Assembly (NCBI RefSeq): GCF_012277275.1 | Contig: NZ_CP051155.1 | Coordinates: 2,480,001-2,544,000 of the forward strand | Direction of reading: 5' to 3' | DNA length: 64,000 nucleotides | DNA from: Gephyromycinifex aptenodytis | GTDB taxonomy: Bacteria; Actinomycetota; Actinomycetes; Actinomycetales; Dermatophilaceae | Part shown: positions 1-7,250 of the stretch, in pieces | Numbering within the stretch: the first letter of the stretch is position 1 | Layout of the letters: every line of letters begins with the position of its first letter | Position numbers and translations under genes: made by a program | Notes under the pieces: generated by a model | Databases searched by the model: none | What the model was told of the DNA's origin: nothing | The model's input: only the letters and a program-made list of their open reading frames with translations

Positions 1-763
1 AGGTGCAGAAACCGATCGGGGCCACCACCGGCACCCCGGCATCGGAGAGCACCTTGGCCTCCACCCGATAGGTCGCCGACAACGTTTCGGTGGTCAGCAC
101 CTCTTCGGGGGTCCCGAACTGCACGGAACGCCCGTCGCGCAGCACCAGGAGCTGGTCGCAGAACCGCGCGGCGAGGTTGATGTCGTGCATCGGAACCAAG
201 GTGACCCCGCCGCTGCCGGCGGTGCGCTGGCGCACGAACGTCAGCACCTTGAGCTGGTGGTGCAGGTCCAACGCCGAGGTCGGTTCGTCCAGCAGCATGA
301 TCGGCGGTTTGCGCACCGTCATCTGGGCGATGCCGGCCAACTGCCGCTGCCCGCCGGAGAGCTCTCCCAGGTAGCGGTTCGCCAGCTGTTGAATGCCCAA
401 CTCGCCGAGCGCTTCGTAGGCGCGTTCGACGTCGCTACGGTTCGTGCGCCACAGCGAGCGGCGCGCGAGACCGACGATGACCGCCTCGATGACGGTCAGT
501 GCGACATCACCTGGTGGATCCTGCGGAACATAGCCGAGGGCGTCCCGACGCTCCCGCTCGCCGAGTTCGCGCCCGTCAGCGTCCCAGGCGCGGATCGTCC
601 CGCTACCGCGGTGGATACCGGCGATCAAGCGCATGAGGGTCGACTTTCCAGAACCGTTCGGTCCCAGAACCCCGACCACACCCTCGACCGGCGGTAGGTC
701 CACCCCGGCCAACGCGCGGTGGCGCCCATAGGAGTAGTGGATGTCCGACAGGGACAGCTTCAT
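1..763 (-). CDS. Iron-siderophore ABC transporter ATP-binding protein (FecE type, C-terminus cut by window edge)
   Basis: This is the cytoplasmic ATPase that would power iron-siderophore import. Translating the minus strand from the ATG at 763 gives an open frame to the window edge, about 254 residues, so the stop lies outside. Visible motifs in order are Walker A GPNGSGKST, the Q-loop region, the ABC signature LSGGQRQ, Walker B IMLLDEPTS and the H-loop in MHDIN. The FecE/FepC family usually has 250-270 residues, so little is missing. The start overlaps the permease stop as ATGA, meaning translational coupling, and the gene is third in the operon after the binding protein and permease. The iron box upstream of the operon suggests repression by iron. 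The actual siderophore cannot be told. Confidence 0.93.
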   Translation of the reverse strand, partial: MKLSLSDIHYSYGRHRALAGVDLPPVEGVVGVLGPNGSGKSTLMRLIAGIHRGSGTIRAWDADGRELGERERRDALGYVPQDPPGDVALTVIEAVIVGLARRSLWRTNRSDVERAYEALGELGIQQLANRYLGELSGGQRQLAGIAQMTVRKPPIMLLDEPTSALDLHHQLKVLTFVRQRTAGSGGVTLVPMHDINLAARFCDQLLVLRDGRSVQFGTPEEVLTTETLSATYRVEAKVLSDAGVPVVAPIGFCT

Positions 764-1863
764 CGTCCACCTCCGAAGGCGCTCCGGCGACGGAGCAGGA
801 TGATTGCGACGAAGACGGGAACACCGATGGTCGCGGTGAGGATCCCGACGGGGACGGCCACGCCCGGCACGATGACGAGGCTGACCGCGTGGGCGCCGGT
901 GAGCAGCGCCGCTCCGGTCAGCAGCGAGGCAGGCAGCAGATACCGCTGGTCTTCACCAACGAGTACCCGCGCCACGTGCGGCCCCACAAGACCGACGAAA
1001 CCGATAACCCCGACGAACGAGACCGCGATCGCGGCCAGCAGGGAAACGACCACCAGCGTGCCGACCCGCACCCGACGCACGTTGACACCGAGGGCCTGAG
1101 CACGCGCGTCGCCGAACCGCATGGCCGTCAGTCGCCAGCCGTTGACGATGAAGAACGGCACCGCAAGCACTAGGGACAGCCCCACGATCACGATGGCGGG
1201 CCAGGTGGCTCGCTGCATCGAGCCCATGCTCCAGAACACGATCTGCTGCAGGGATTCAACGCTGGCGTTGTATTGCATGAGCGTGAGCAATGCCTGGAAC
1301 AGGAACACCATCGCGATACCGAAAAGGACCACGGTCTCGGTGCTCGCGCCGCGCCAGGAGGAGATCGCCGAGATGATCAGCGCGGTGATCAGGGCCATCC
1401 CGCCCGCGCACACCGTGAGGGTGTACTGCTCGAGGTAGGGCATTTGGAACCGGGTGACGATCGCCAGCGCAGCGCCGAAGGCGGCTGCGGCCGAGACGCC
1501 CAGGGTGAACGGTTCCGCCAACGGGTTGTCCAGGATTGTCTGCATCTGCAGACCGCCGACCGACAGTGATGCGCCGACCAGCACCGCGAGCAAGGCGGGT
1601 GGGAGTCGCAAGTTCCAGACGACGGACTGCAGCTGAGGATCGACTCCCGATGGGTCGATGAGTGCTGCGGTGACTTCCTTGAGGCTGTAGTGCAGCGGCC
1701 CCACCGCCAGCCCTTGGGCGAATGCGTACACCACCAGGACGATCAGGATCACAACCACCGCCAGGCGGCGCAGAGTGCGCCGCCTGGCGATGTCGAGCTG
1801 GTCGCGCGCGCTGGGTGGCGCGCTGCTCGCTGGTGTCTCTTCGTGCTCGATAACTGTTGCCAC
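760..1863 (-). CDS. Iron-siderophore ABC transporter permease (FecCD family)
   Basis: Membrane channel subunit of the same importer. The protein is very hydrophobic with about nine or ten predicted membrane segments and carries the FecCD hallmarks: an R-L-P-P segment followed by GASLSVGGLQMQ, then NPLAEPFTLGVSAAAAFG, and near the end GFVGLVGPHVAR. I chose the GTG at 1863, six bases downstream of the binding protein's stop, giving 367 residues. An upstream ATG at 1938 would lie inside the binding-protein gene and add about 25 residues of non-membrane sequence unlike the family. No good ribosome binding site precedes 1863, so the exact start is uncertain. Only one permease is seen, so it probably works as a homodimer. 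Confidence 0.92.
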   Translation of the reverse strand: MATVIEHEETPASSAPPSARDQLDIARRRTLRRLAVVVILIVLVVYAFAQGLAVGPLHYSLKEVTAALIDPSGVDPQLQSVVWNLRLPPALLAVLVGASLSVGGLQMQTILDNPLAEPFTLGVSAAAAFGAALAIVTRFQMPYLEQYTLTVCAGGMALITALIISAISSWRGASTETVVLFGIAMVFLFQALLTLMQYNASVESLQQIVFWSMGSMQRATWPAIVIVGLSLVLAVPFFIVNGWRLTAMRFGDARAQALGVNVRRVRVGTLVVVSLLAAIAVSFVGVIGFVGLVGPHVARVLVGEDQRYLLPASLLTGAALLTGAHAVSLVIVPGVAVPVGILTATIGVPVFVAIILLRRRSAFGGGR

Positions 1864-1868
1864 GTCGC

Positions 1869-3083
1869 TCAGTCGATCGAGGCCACGACGGTGCCCTGCG
1901 CCGGGAACGGCATGAACTTCTCCGAGAAGTCCTTCCACGTCGCCGCCGGGTCAACATCGGTGAACTTTTCCGGGTGCTGCCACTTCGCGAACGCCTGGTA
2001 AGCGATGAAGTTGTACGGGGCGTCGTAGAACTGGTGGTAGATGCCGTGGACCTTCTTGTTCTCGAAGGCCTTCAGGTGGTCGAAGCCGGGCTGCTTGCCC
2101 AGGGCCTTCAGCGAGGCGGTGGCCGCGGCCTCGTCCGTGTCGTAACCCAGGTTGAGGTAGGACGTCTTGGACTTCTCGTCGATCTTCTGCTCCGACCAGG
2201 CGCCACCGGTGGCGATGAGGATGTCGGGCTGGCTGGCGAGCAACTGCTCGGGGGTCAGGTCGCCTTCTTCACCCTTGAGGAACTTCGCAGCCAGGTTGGT
2301 GCCGCCGACCTGAGCCAGCATCTGGCCGAAGTTGACGTCGTTCCAGGTGGAGCAGCAAGCCTTGAGGCCGGGGGCGCGCCACATGAAGGTGACCGGCTTA
2401 TCGGTGGCCTTCTCGCCCTCCTTGATGAGCGGGTCGACCACGGAGTCGTAGTACTTCAGGAACTCATCGGCCTTGTCCTCGCGGTCGAAGATCTGCCCCA
2501 GCAGCTTCATCGAGACGGCGGTGTTCGTCGCAGGCTTGACCCGGAAGTCGGTGACGACGTACGGGATCTTGGCCTTTTCGATCTTGTCCAGCAGGCCGTT
2601 CTGCTCTGCGGCGCGCATCGAGTCCAGGGTCATTACGTACACGTCCGGCTTGAGCTGGAGCAGCCCCTCGACCGAAAGGTCGCCCGAGTTGACCGAGCCG
2701 ATCTGCGGGATGTCCTTGGCCTCCGGCTCGGCCTTGAGGAGTTGGGCGTACATGTCGGGGGCGGCCCGTTCCATGTCCTTGCCCCAGGCGATGACCTTGT
2801 CGGTCGGGTCGTCCTTGTTGAGGATCATCGTGGCGTAGGCGGCGCGCTGTTCCCCCAGGACGATGCGCTCGGGCTTGTGGTCGAACGTCACGGTGCGGTC
2901 GGCAGCGTCGGTGACGCTGACGGCGGCCTCGGCGGCAGGCGAACTGGCGTCACCGCTGGCGGCGGCTTCGGATGTGGCCTCACCGTTCGCCGGGCTTTCG
3001 GCGCCTGAGTCAGAGCCGCCGCAGGCAGCGAGGAGTGGGGTTGCCGCGAGAGTGGCCACAAGGGCAATTGAACGAAGCTTCAC
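1869..3083 (-). CDS. Iron-siderophore ABC transporter substrate-binding lipoprotein
   Basis: Surface lipoprotein that captures ferric siderophore and delivers it to the permease. The N-terminus has a signal peptide with lipobox LAAC, predicted lipid-modified Cys21, followed by a low-complexity Ala/Ser/Glu linker to about residue 55. The mature part has the periplasmic-binding-protein type III layout: an opening segment VTDAADRTVTFDHKPERIV typical of FecB/FepB proteins, and later LLASQPDILIATGG. The start is a GTG at 3083, with AAGG seven bases upstream. It is the first gene of the operon and an iron box lies 30 bases upstream of its start. An unusual Cys pair (ACCSTW, around residue 239) sits in the mature domain. 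Ligand specificity is unknown. Confidence 0.93.
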   Translation of the reverse strand: MKLRSIALVATLAATPLLAACGGSDSGAESPANGEATSEAAASGDASSPAAEAAVSVTDAADRTVTFDHKPERIVLGEQRAAYATMILNKDDPTDKVIAWGKDMERAAPDMYAQLLKAEPEAKDIPQIGSVNSGDLSVEGLLQLKPDVYVMTLDSMRAAEQNGLLDKIEKAKIPYVVTDFRVKPATNTAVSMKLLGQIFDREDKADEFLKYYDSVVDPLIKEGEKATDKPVTFMWRAPGLKACCSTWNDVNFGQMLAQVGGTNLAAKFLKGEEGDLTPEQLLASQPDILIATGGAWSEQKIDEKSKTSYLNLGYDTDEAAATASLKALGKQPGFDHLKAFENKKVHGIYHQFYDAPYNFIAYQAFAKWQHPEKFTDVDPAATWKDFSEKFMPFPAQGTVVASID

Positions 3084-3176: not shown

Positions 3177-3698
3177 TCAGTGTCGGTGGCGAACGTCGAG
3201 GTCTGTCCGCGAGACGAGTTTGTCCAACAGGCGCACCAGCGTGGCCTGTTCGTCCTGGGTCAGGGCGGCGGTCCAGGCGACTTCGCGCTCATGCTGGGCA
3301 GCGAAGAGCGACTGGATCTCTCGCTCTCCCCGGGTGCTCAGGGACAGGATCACCGAGCGCCCGTCATGGGCAGCCGGTTCGCGATGCAGCAGACCCTCGC
3401 GCAGCAGCGGGCCGAGATGGTTGGAGACGGCAGCCCGCGTCAAGCCGGTGAGTTCGGCGACCCGGCGCGGTTCGAGATCGCCAGCGAGCCACAGCACGTA
3501 CAGGATGCGAAACGTCGCCCAGGAACGTCCCGCCGGGCGATGGACGCTCGCTTCCAGGTCGTAGGTGATGATCCCGGACGCGCGGTTGAGAGTGAGCAGG
3601 AGTTCGGTGGCGTGCGGGTCGCTGAACCCCTGCTGGGTCAGGCGCGTGCGCGCCAGGCGCACGAAAGACCAGAAATCCAGTTCTTCGTCGCTCGTCAT
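3177..3698 (-). CDS. MarR family transcriptional regulator
   Basis: A 173-residue winged-helix repressor. The central part (GRSWATFRILYVLWLAG, then RRVAELTGLTRAAVSNHL) is the MarR DNA-recognition region, followed by the wing DGRSVILSLSTRG. The N-terminal stretch of about 55 residues before it is longer than in minimal MarR proteins. It is transcribed divergently from hmgA, and the 90-base gap holds a perfect 7-4-7 inverted repeat over the likely hmgA promoter. I infer that it represses the homogentisate operon and itself, with an aromatic catabolite as inducer. The ligand is not evident from sequence. Confidence 0.88.
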   Translation of the reverse strand: MTSDEELDFWSFVRLARTRLTQQGFSDPHATELLLTLNRASGIITYDLEASVHRPAGRSWATFRILYVLWLAGDLEPRRVAELTGLTRAAVSNHLGPLLREGLLHREPAAHDGRSVILSLSTRGEREIQSLFAAQHEREVAWTAALTQDEQATLVRLLDKLVSRTDLDVRHRH

Positions 3699-3740: not shown

Positions 3741-3768
3741 TTGACAAGATAGTACAGAGATGTACTAC
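3741..3768 (+). promoter_or_regulatory. hmgA promoter with MarR-type operator
   Basis: TTGACA at 3741-3746 is followed after 16 bases by TACTAC at 3763-3768, a plausible -35/-10 pair for hmgA. Between and across them lies the perfect inverted repeat TAGTACA-GAGA-TGTACTA (3750-3767). Such a repeat inside the promoter next to a divergent marR gene is the usual arrangement for a MarR operator. The hmgA ribosome binding site AGGAGA is at 3778-3783. Confidence 0.7.
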
Positions 3769-3788: not shown

Positions 3789-5057
3789 ATGGCTTACTAC
3801 CGCAGTGTGGGCAGCATCCCGCCGAAGCGCCACACCCAGCACCGCACGCCTGAGGGGGAGCTCTACTACGAGGAGCTCATGGGTGAGGAGGGTTTCAGCT
3901 CCGACTCCAGCCTGCTCTACCACCGCGGTCTGCCCTCAGCGCTGAACGACATCCGTGAGTGGGACATCGGCGACCACAGCCTGACGCCCAACGCGCCCCT
4001 GACACCGCGGCACCACAAGCTGCACGACCTCTTCCCCGCCGGGGCGGAGCAGGGTGTGGACGCGGTTCGGGGCAGGCGTCTCGTGCTCGGCAACGCCGAC
4101 GTGCGCCTGGCCTATGTCGCCGCTGACACCATCAGCCCGTGGTACCGCAACGCCATCGGCGATGAGTGCGTCTATGTGGAGCGCGGAAACGCTCGCCTAG
4201 AAACCGTTTTCGGTGCGTTCGACGTGCGCGAGGGCCACTACGCGATCATCCCGCGCGCGACGACGCACCGGTGGCTGCCGGTGACGCCACGCGACGGCGA
4301 GGCCTACCGTGAGCCGTTTCGCGCCTACTTCATCGAAGCCAACAGCCACATCACCCCACCCCATCGCTACCTGAGCCGTTACGGGCAGTTGCTGGAGCAC
4401 AGCCCGTTCTGTGAACGCGACTATGTCGTTCCGAGCGAGCCGTTGCTGGCCGAGAACATCGGCGCCGACCCGGCCGAGGCGACCGAGGTCTACATCAAGC
4501 ATCGTGGTCGCGGTCCCAGCGGCATCGGGGGTTCGGTGCACACCCAGCCGCACCACCCGCTGGACGTGGTCGGCTGGGACGGCTGCCTCTACCCGTTCCT
4601 GCTGCACATCAGCGATTACGAGCCGATCACCGGCCGGGTGCACCAACCGCCGCCGGCGCACCAGGTGTGGGAGGGGCACAACTTCGTGGTGTGCAACTTC
4701 GTGCCTCGCAAGGTGGACTACCACCCGCTGGCTATCCCGGTGCCGTACTACCACTCCAACGTGGATTCCGATGAGGTGATGTTCTACGTCGCCGGTGACT
4801 ACGAGGCGCGTAAGGGCTCCGGCATCGGCCGCGGATCGATCTCGCTGCACCCGGCGGGGCACGCCCACGGCCCGCAGCCGGGCGCCATGGAGGCCTCCCT
4901 GGGGATGGAGGCCTTCGACGAGACCGCCGTCATGGTCGATACTTTCCGCCCGCTGGACCTGGGCGAGGCCGGCCTTGCCTGCGAGGATGAGAACTATCCG
5001 TGGTCCTGGAGCGGCGGCCGCCGCGTGTTGGCCAATGAGGAGAAGAAGACGCCATGA
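3789..5057 (+). CDS. hmgA: Homogentisate 1,2-dioxygenase
   Basis: Fe(II) enzyme that opens the ring of homogentisate to maleylacetoacetate in phenylalanine/tyrosine breakdown. The 422-residue product is of family length and has the double-cupin layout. The C-terminal iron site is visible: His322 with the acidic pair Asp328/Glu329 in HSNVDSDEVMFY, and His358/His360 in GHAHGPQPG. The start ATG at 3789 has AGGAGA seven bases upstream. The stop overlaps the next gene as ATGA, so the two are translationally coupled. A MarR operator sits in the promoter. The dioxygenase that makes homogentisate from 4-hydroxyphenylpyruvate is not in this window. Confidence 0.95.
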   Translation: MAYYRSVGSIPPKRHTQHRTPEGELYYEELMGEEGFSSDSSLLYHRGLPSALNDIREWDIGDHSLTPNAPLTPRHHKLHDLFPAGAEQGVDAVRGRRLVLGNADVRLAYVAADTISPWYRNAIGDECVYVERGNARLETVFGAFDVREGHYAIIPRATTHRWLPVTPRDGEAYREPFRAYFIEANSHITPPHRYLSRYGQLLEHSPFCERDYVVPSEPLLAENIGADPAEATEVYIKHRGRGPSGIGGSVHTQPHHPLDVVGWDGCLYPFLLHISDYEPITGRVHQPPPAHQVWEGHNFVVCNFVPRKVDYHPLAIPVPYYHSNVDSDEVMFYVAGDYEARKGSGIGRGSISLHPAGHAHGPQPGAMEASLGMEAFDETAVMVDTFRPLDLGEAGLACEDENYPWSWSGGRRVLANEEKKTP

Positions 5058-6001
5058 CGAGCATCCCCGCCGTCCTTCGAGGCCTGTGTGACGACGCCGC
5101 AATCTTCCCGCCCGGCAATAAGCCTCTTGTGCACGCTGTGCCCGACCACATCCTGCATCACCGCAGCGACTACGCCGCGCTGGTCGGCCCCTTTATCATC
5201 AGTGCCGCCAAACTCGTGGAGCTGCCGCCGCTGCTGAGCGGGCTGCCGCGTACCTCCTTGGCCGTGTCGGTGACGGTCCCTTCGCCGCAGGAGGCGCAGG
5301 CCGTCATCACCTCGGCAGCGTTGTTGCCGCCACTTCGCCTGGCCGGACTGGAGATCGCGGTGCCGGATTCGATGAGCGCCGAGGATGTCATTCCGGCCCT
5401 CGGACAGGCTCTGGCGGGGGTAGACGTCGAAGGCGGCGGGCTGGGCGTGTACGTGGAAATTCCGCGGGATCATCGACGCTCGAAGCTGATCGACCTGCTC
5501 GCGGGTACGCCCTATCGGGCCAAGTTCCGCACCGGCGGGATCCGCGCTGACCTTTACCCCTCAGAGAACGAACTTGCCGGCGCCATCCAGGCGGTCGTGC
5601 GTGCCGGGATCGCTTTCAAGGCCACCGCTGGGCTGCACCATGCGGTGCGCAACACCGAGCCCGAGCACCGCTTCGAGCAGCATGGTTTCCTGAACGTGAT
5701 GCTGGCCACCGACGCCGCCGCCCAGGGCGCCGAGCGCAGCGAGATCGCCGAACTGCTGGGCGAGCGCAACGGGCCGACTCTGGCCGAGCGCCTGCGCGCC
5801 CTGCCGACCGCGCGCGCCGAGCGCCTGCGGGCGTCATTCCGTTCCTACGGCACCTGCAGCATCGACGAACCGCTCGCCGAACTCCTGGAGTTGGGCTTGA
5901 TCGATCGTCGCGCCGCCGCTGAGCAGCCAGAACCCGGACCAGGTGGCGGGCCTGAGGTCCGTCTCACCGAGCACGGCCGTCACCGAGGAGCGGCCGACTA
6001 G
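5054..6001 (+). CDS. Protein of unknown function between hmgA and fahA (possible maleylacetoacetate isomerase)
   Basis: I do not recognise a characterised family. The 315-residue protein is soluble, without signal peptide or membrane segments. Its most family-like part lies in the second half: AKFRTGGIRADLYPSE, then IAFKATAGLHHAVR and HGFLNVMLATDAA, regions of tightly spaced polar residues that look like an active site. Its start overlaps the hmgA stop (ATGA) and fahA follows 55 bases later, so it is almost certainly part of the homogentisate operon. Between HmgA and FahA products one reaction is needed, maleylacetoacetate to fumarylacetoacetate, normally done by a glutathione S-transferase zeta enzyme; actinobacteria mostly lack glutathione and no such gene is here. 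Assigning it that step is inference from context only. Confidence 0.85.
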   Translation: MTSIPAVLRGLCDDAAIFPPGNKPLVHAVPDHILHHRSDYAALVGPFIISAAKLVELPPLLSGLPRTSLAVSVTVPSPQEAQAVITSAALLPPLRLAGLEIAVPDSMSAEDVIPALGQALAGVDVEGGGLGVYVEIPRDHRRSKLIDLLAGTPYRAKFRTGGIRADLYPSENELAGAIQAVVRAGIAFKATAGLHHAVRNTEPEHRFEQHGFLNVMLATDAAAQGAERSEIAELLGERNGPTLAERLRALPTARAERLRASFRSYGTCSIDEPLAELLELGLIDRRAAAEQPEPGPGGGPEVRLTEHGRHRGAAD

Positions 6002-6056
6002 CGCGGCCGCGTTCCTTTGATCCGCCCTCTACCGCTTTGACGTGGAAGGACCACCT

Positions 6057-7250
6057 ATGACCGACACCATCCGCCTGCATGTCCCCGAGAATTCGGGGTT
6101 CGGCATGTCCAACCTGCCTTATGGGGTGTATTCGGTCGGTGACGGCGTTAAGCGGGTCGCAACCCGAGTCGGGGACAACGTCGTCGACCTGGCCATGCTG
6201 CTGCCGCAGGAGGAAGAGGTTTTCGCCTGCGAACACCTCAACGCGTTCATGGCTCAGGGCTACCAGCGCTGGGTTCAGGTACGTGAGGCGATCCGCTCAG
6301 CGGTCGGCGGGGAGGTTCCGGCAGCGGCGGTGCACCCGGTCTCGCAGGTAAAGATGCACCTGCCGTTCGTGGTGGCGGACTACGTCGACTTCTACGCCAG
6401 CGAGAACCACGCCTCGAACTTGGGCCGGTTGTTCCGACCTGACAACCCCGACCCGTTGATGCCGAACTGGAAGCACCTTCCGGTGGGTTACCACGGCCGG
6501 TCCAGCACCATCGTCGTCTCCGGGGTGGACGTGGTGCGCCCGTGCGGGCAGCGCAAGGGTCCCAACGACCCGGCGCCGGTCTTCGGGCCCTCGACTCGGC
6601 TGGACATCGAGGCCGAGATGGGTTTCGTGGTGGGGGCCGGGAACGAGATGGGCACCTGCATCGGTACGGATGAGGCCGAGCAGCACCTCTTCGGTGCCGT
6701 GATCTTCAACGACTGGTCCGCGCGCGACATCCAGGCCTGGGAGTACGTGCCGCTCGGCCCGAACTTGGGCAAGAGCTTTGCGAGTTCGATCTCCCCATGG
6801 GTGGTGCCGATGCTGGCGTTGAAGCAGGCGCACTGCGCCACCCCGGTGCAGGACCCCGAACCGCTGCCGTACCTGCATATGGAAGAGCCGTGGGGGCTGG
6901 ACATCGCGCTGGAGGTGGAGTGGAACGGCGAGGTCGTCTCCCGGCCGCCGTACTCCACGATGTACTGGTCACCGGCACAGATGCTCGCGCACACCACCGT
7001 CAACGGCGCCGCCACCCGCACCGGCGACGTGTTCGCCTCGGGCACGATCTCAGGCCCGGACAAGAATGAGCGTGGCGCGTTCATCGAGTTGACCTGGGGC
7101 GGTAAAGAGCCGATCACGGTCGGCGGGCAGGAACGCACCTTCGTGCTCGACGGGGACACGATCACCCTGCGCGCCAGCGCCCCCGGCGAGGGCGGGGAAC
7201 GCATCGACTTCGGTGAGGTCACCACCACGATCCGCCCGGCGACCTGCTGA
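6057..7250 (+). CDS. fahA: Fumarylacetoacetase
   Basis: Last enzyme of the homogentisate pathway, hydrolysing fumarylacetoacetate to fumarate and acetoacetate. The 397-residue protein has the short N-terminal FAH domain and then the catalytic domain with DIEAEMGFVVG (paired metal-binding Glu) and FNDWSARDIQAWEYVPLG, followed by LGKSFASSISPWVVP. Length is near the usual 400-440. I chose ATG 6057, six bases after GGAAGGA at 6044-6050; a GTG at 6042 in frame would overlap that ribosome binding site. It is the third gene of the operon and a strong terminator follows 25 bases after the stop. Confidence 0.95.
   Translation: MTDTIRLHVPENSGFGMSNLPYGVYSVGDGVKRVATRVGDNVVDLAMLLPQEEEVFACEHLNAFMAQGYQRWVQVREAIRSAVGGEVPAAAVHPVSQVKMHLPFVVADYVDFYASENHASNLGRLFRPDNPDPLMPNWKHLPVGYHGRSSTIVVSGVDVVRPCGQRKGPNDPAPVFGPSTRLDIEAEMGFVVGAGNEMGTCIGTDEAEQHLFGAVIFNDWSARDIQAWEYVPLGPNLGKSFASSISPWVVPMLALKQAHCATPVQDPEPLPYLHMEEPWGLDIALEVEWNGEVVSRPPYSTMYWSPAQMLAHTTVNGAATRTGDVFASGTISGPDKNERGAFIELTWGGKEPITVGGQERTFVLDGDTITLRASAPGEGGERIDFGEVTTTIRPATC

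Follow-up and report, generated by a model that had tools for sequence, protein, structure and literature searches.

A predicted glutathione-independent maleylacetoacetate isomerase encoded between hmgA and fahA in Actinomycetes

Gene organization at the homogentisate locus

The window, by which the whole analyzed stretch of 64,000 nucleotides is meant, is part of the complete genome (3.45 Mb) of Gephyromycinifex aptenodytis. It contains an operon for the degradation of tyrosine via homogentisate, with the following features in and upstream of it:

760-3083, reverse strand: ABC permease and substrate-binding protein genes upstream of the operon, of siderophore type by reading of the sequence
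3177..3698, reverse strand: gene for a MarR-family regulator (PF12802, 1.2e-8), divergent from hmgA
3750..3767: perfect inverted repeat TAGTACA-GAGA-TGTACTA (7 + 7) between marR and hmgA
3789..5057, forward strand: hmgA, encoding a divergent homogentisate 1,2-dioxygenase of actinobacterial type (Pfam/NCBIfam)
5054..6001, forward strand: gene X, an open reading frame of 315 amino acids, predicted maleylacetoacetate isomerase with a DERA-like (beta/alpha)8 barrel
6057..7250, forward strand: fahA, fumarylacetoacetase (TIGR01266, 427.7 bits, over the cut-off; Pfam/NCBIfam)

In the proposed pathway, HmgA would convert homogentisate to 4-maleylacetoacetate (MAA), protein X would change the cis double bond of MAA to trans, and FahA would split fumarylacetoacetate into fumarate and acetoacetate. 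The HmgA protein of this organism scores 55.8 bits against TIGR01015, the cut-off of which is 510.75. The TGA stop codon of hmgA is located within an ATGA sequence shared with the start of gene X at 5054, and 55 bases separate the stop codon of X from the ATG at 6057. The latter codon, which is preceded by GGAAGGACC, is taken as the start of fahA; the GTG at 6042 at which the open reading frame begins mechanically is less likely. Overlap and gap were both found again upon re-reading the DNA. The original prediction had concluded from them that all three proteins are made together. This holds in that the genes form an operon, but it does not guarantee that fahA is expressed to the same level: a hairpin (5990-6010; seven pairs, G+C, with a weak T tail) is positioned over the stop codon of X. 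The hairpin is not above chance, as 1.6 such sites are expected; it could possibly serve as an attenuator between X and fahA.

None of 100 shuffles of the DNA gave an inverted repeat such as that at 3750-3767, immediately upstream of which a TTGACA sequence is present. Sites resembling the repeat precede hmgA in four other loci (L001, L003, L004, and L145). The repeat is probably the operator of the divergently encoded MarR protein, which probably controls the hmgA-X-fahA operon.

Conservation of gene order

Whether homologues of X keep the order hmgA-X-fahA had been put forward as a check on the original prediction, and they do so to a large extent. The three genes are contiguous in 19 of 27 close homologues, and X is linked to the pathway in 23; the four additional linked copies are next to one of hmgA and fahA. 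The other four, all from Kitasatospora, are solitary: their gene context is uninformative, while the key residues described below are kept. An even sample of 297 genomes of the class Actinomycetes contains 95 genomes with X, 127 with hmgA of this type, and 156 with fahA. Ninety of the 95 X-bearing genomes carry hmgA and the same number carry fahA, with hypergeometric p values, relatedness being ignored, of 5e-39 and 1e-26, respectively. The distance of X to hmgA or fahA is less than 500 bp in 89 of the 95 genomes; it touches both genes in 79, only fahA in five, only hmgA in five, and neither in six. Sampling of the whole phylum revealed X in five genomes from other classes, each time beside fahA. 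Two of these five genes are located within an hmgA-X-fahA cluster and one (L143) follows an hmgA that is nearer to the canonical kind. A comparable arrangement is seen in L016, one of the four copies linked to a single gene, in which an X-fahA pair has a canonical hmgA on its far side. The pairing of X with these other types of HmgA indicates that X follows the pathway rather than one type of dioxygenase.

In Bacillota and Cyanobacteria, X has been found in plasmid records only. The Priestia megaterium plasmid carries the order hppD-X-fahA-aminotransferase-hmgA, and in the cyanobacterium Kovacikia X overlaps fahA by four bases with hmgA and hppD adjoining. Across phyla, X proteins share approximately 27 % identity, and the neighbor gene is nevertheless kept. 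Plasmid-borne operons with the order hmgA-X-fahA also occur in Streptomyces, Pseudonocardia, Rhodococcus, and Tsukamurella, and a further Streptomyces plasmid record contains an X-fahA pair. Complete homogentisate modules with X are plasmid-borne in six records from these four genera and Priestia (L121, L123, L124, L125, L126, and L129); the module, therefore, probably moves between hosts. Mobilicoccus massiliensis (L001, L008) has two copies of X on one contig, one located after hmgA and the other before fahA.

Predicted fold and conserved residues

Protein X had no significant match in sequence searches of Pfam, NCBIfam, or the PDB, and a profile built from 25 of its members gave chance matches only against the PDB. 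In particular, no match was obtained with the zeta-class glutathione S-transferase (GST) isomerase profile TIGR01262 in NCBIfam up to an E value of 10, with PF11716 (MDMPI_N) in Pfam, or with DeoC in Pfam or NCBIfam. The closest proteins are those of Mobilicoccus (64 % identity) and Agilicoccus (59 %). A search of openly licensed papers did not yield a description of the family. HmgX of Aspergillus fumigatus is likewise the product of an uncharacterized gene in a tyrosine-degradation cluster, but its gene of 771 bp is required at the HppD step, upstream of homogentisate in the pathway; by this description, the two differ (PMC3203155). The A. fumigatus cluster also carries a maiA gene of its own (PMC3203155).

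According to AlphaFold2, protein X folds into a (beta/alpha)8 barrel; the model has a pLDDT of 90.4, with low confidence in the tail past residue 290. The original prediction had called for a comparison of the predicted structure with known folds, and the outcome is an enzyme-like barrel that is most similar in structure to deoxyribose-5-phosphate aldolase (DERA), a Schiff-base enzyme. The best DERA match has a Z score of 13.8 (3.8 A over 209 residues), other DERAs follow down to 12.6, and homocitrate synthase comes next at 12.3. A similar result was obtained with a model (pLDDT 91.7) of the pathway-linked protein of L140, which is 32 % identical to X: each of the 42 best matches was a DERA or a design derived from one (Z 14.5 to 12.8), the best one at Z 14.5 and 3.4 A over 209 residues, with other barrels starting from 12.1. 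Both models are thus of the DERA type. As modeled, the barrel differs from the thioredoxin-like plus all-helical fold of GSTs as well as from the metal-binding four-helix bundle of DinB proteins.

Ten residues of protein X stand out: D13, E100, E135, K157, R159, K189, T191, H195, N214, and C268. Eight of these (D13, E100, E135, K157, R159, K189, H195, and C268) are invariant across three phyla (alignment A2). The polar core that had looked conserved in the single sequence, including HGFLNV, is indeed conserved in alignments A1 and A2. In the model, D13 is located at or after the C-terminal end of strand 1, E100 of strand 4, E135 of strand 5, K157 and R159 of strand 6, K189 and T191 of strand 7, and C268 of strand 8; H195 comes after K189 and T191. 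The two invariant lysines are in strands 155-159 (K157, sixth) and 188-191 (K189, seventh). DERA has its Schiff-base lysine on strand 6 and another lysine on strand 7. By strand position in the model, the two lysines of X and its acidic residue on strand 4 may follow the same strand order as in DeoC/DERA, whereas the invariant cysteine after strand 8, the motifs KxRTGG and FKxTAGLHH, and the gene context set X apart. Comparison of the X and DeoC profiles with hhalign was not significant (E 0.2, probability 0.3 %), and because the profiles do not match, only a resemblance to DERA, and no common descent, is claimed. The titles of some of the matched DERA entries refer to variants engineered for Michael additions or to Schiff bases with cinnamaldehydes, which indicates that the DERA scaffold is able to activate an unsaturated carbonyl.

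When all loci are compared, 73 of the 77 copies linked to the pathway retain K157, K189, and C268 together, against five of the 11 unlinked copies. C12 was also considered as the catalytic thiol and was rejected, V, I, F, or L being present at this position in many members.

Proposed function and alternative explanations

Glutathione-independent homogentisate pathways have been recognized biochemically in Gram-positive bacteria since the 1970s. In glutathione-free bacteria, the isomerase is the missing step in the breakdown of tyrosine and homogentisate. According to a paper of 2018 on Bacillus thuringiensis, which has an operon of hppD, fahA, and hmgA, the gene for MAA isomerization cannot be identified in the genome (PMC6193087). 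HmgA and HmgB were detected by proteomics in Rhodococcus globerulus, and the available part of that paper does not name an isomerase among the detected proteins (PMC11889516). In Rhodococcus opacus R7, an enoyl-CoA hydratase-isomerase gene flanking hmgA/fahA was named "mai"; it shares with X the step assigned to it and its position beside these genes and differs in being named as an enoyl-CoA hydratase, and the part of the paper available to us contains no assay of it (PMC4591350). The accessions given there for hmgA (AII08874) and fahA (AII08876) leave room for one gene in between that this part does not mention (PMC4591350), and which would presumably be X.

The original prediction was that X is a glutathione-independent MAA isomerase, and we consider it probable that X performs this step of the tyrosine/homogentisate operon without a thiol cofactor and represents a new family. 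The proposal is supported by the linkage of X to the pathway in three phyla and to either type of HmgA, by the barrel with its invariant Lys, Lys, Cys, His, and acidic residues, and by the absence of the zeta-class GST isomerase: the TIGR01262 profile detected no maiA gene in the genome of G. aptenodytis or in any of the 297 Actinomycetes genomes at 1e-20, and a single match, below the family cut-off, in 71 chosen genomes at 1e-3. Protein X resembles the zeta-class enzyme (MaiA/HmgC) in the proposed reaction and in the slot between HmgA and FahA; it differs in its predicted TIM barrel, in the lack of any sequence match, and in its proposed independence of glutathione.

It had been stated earlier that neither a GST nor a DinB-type isomerase is to be seen, and that either one elsewhere in the genome, if it did this step, would refute the proposal. 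The absence is correct genome-wide for zeta-GST, but for DinB proteins it is restricted to the window: the genome encodes six proteins that score above the Pfam cut-off for MDMPI_N/DinB. In actinobacteria, the cis-trans step of gentisate breakdown is carried out by a mycothiol-dependent maleylpyruvate isomerase of this kind (DinB, PF11716), a step analogous to that proposed for X by an enzyme of another fold and family. One of the six might do the same with MAA, in which case X would be an accessory protein that, for example, stabilizes FahA or handles MAA in its enol or lactone form. Such a division of labor would also suit the genomes in which hmgA and fahA occur without X, as these need some unlinked isomerase, and the operons in which a degenerate X is kept, which suggest a role that does not require K157 and C268 in some lineages. 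None of the six genes is near the hmgA-X-fahA operon, however, and the short stretches examined around them contain fatty-acid and other genes and no recognizable genes for aromatic catabolism. A model built from these DinB proteins detected none within approximately 6 kb of hmgA/fahA in 40 loci without X, which is a weak test. The full set of active-site-like residues in X is, moreover, retained across phyla, including the Bacillota, which produce bacillithiol instead of mycothiol. We therefore regard a DinB isomerase with X as accessory as unlikely, although it is the strongest of the alternatives.

Because the nearest fold belongs to a class I aldolase and X, like DERA, carries lysines on its predicted strands 6 and 7, X could instead be a Schiff-base lyase or hydrolase that acts on an intermediate or side product of the pathway and does not isomerize anything. 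The pathway has no aldol step, however; FahA is encoded next door, the isomerase is the sole enzyme missing, and an aldolase alone would not require an invariant C268, so that this explanation appears somewhat less likely still. That FahA cuts MAA directly, with X as a ligand-binding or regulatory protein and no need for an isomerase, would fit the hmgA- and fahA-containing genomes without a known isomerase and the few degenerate copies of X, but is improbable given the conserved polar residues at the strand ends, which are typical of catalysis, the MarR regulator and probable operator already in place, and the retention of the same residues in the solitary Kitasatospora copies.

Most likely, then, X is the MAA isomerase in many glutathione-free and some other bacteria; the reaction is a known one, and the family would be new and unrelated to the zeta-GST and DinB isomerases. 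The chemistry that we consider most likely is based on the DERA-like barrel. The C4 ketone of MAA would be converted to an iminium by K157, K189 would tune this iminium, and the thiol of C268 would add to the activated alkene, the bond then rotating and the thiol leaving; the protein itself would thus provide the thiol that glutathione provides in the GST enzyme. Even if the isomerase activity is assumed, these particular roles of K157, K189, and C268 are tentative. A DERA-like barrel that isomerizes MAA with its own Lys and Cys, without glutathione, mycothiol, or bacillithiol, is by itself conceivable, at somewhat less than even chances, and if true would mean that MAA isomerization has been solved by separate evolution in a family that extends across Actinomycetota, Bacillota, and Cyanobacteria. 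As an isomerase, X would be one named gene, with residues to mutate, that closes the isomerase gap in many genomes.

Two observations keep our confidence in the isomerase function moderate: the genomes without X and the loss of key residues in some operon copies. In the sample of 297, 35 genomes with hmgA and fahA contain neither X nor zeta-GST, which implies a further, unlinked solution in part of the class. Most of the sampled genomes of one family (f23) have fahA and lack X, and in many of the 35 genomes hmgA is directly adjacent to fahA. In the 40 loci mentioned above (L067-L106), hmgA is present, mostly together with fahA, while X and zeta-GST are both absent, and the isomerase is apparently unlinked. 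No replacement isomerase was found beside hmgA-fahA among the neighbors examined in genomes without X: assignment by Pfam gave a serpin and proteins of the HAD, PH-domain, RF-1, and siderophore-interacting kinds, and inspection by eye added IclR-type regulators and a CoA-transferase.

As to the operon copies, that of L150 has A157, D195, and R268, and those of L138 and L152 carry the single changes T189 and R189, respectively. In three loci from one taxonomic family of the class, degenerate X-like genes occupy the slot before fahA; the N-terminal motif is partly kept and the Lys and Cys motifs are lost:

L091, 6222-6878, reverse strand: degenerate X-like gene
L094, 6628-7452, forward strand: degenerate X-like gene
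L136, 6725-7468, forward strand: degenerate X-like gene

Either the lineages whose operon copies have lost key residues rely on the other solution, or X serves a second function. Paralogues that are not linked to the pathway have Arg in place of the key Cys:

L130, 5857-6912: unlinked X paralogue
L131, 5777-6838: unlinked X paralogue
L139, 5795-6889: unlinked X paralogue

These paralogues may possibly have a different function, and they are repeatedly located near genes for NlpC/P60 peptidases.
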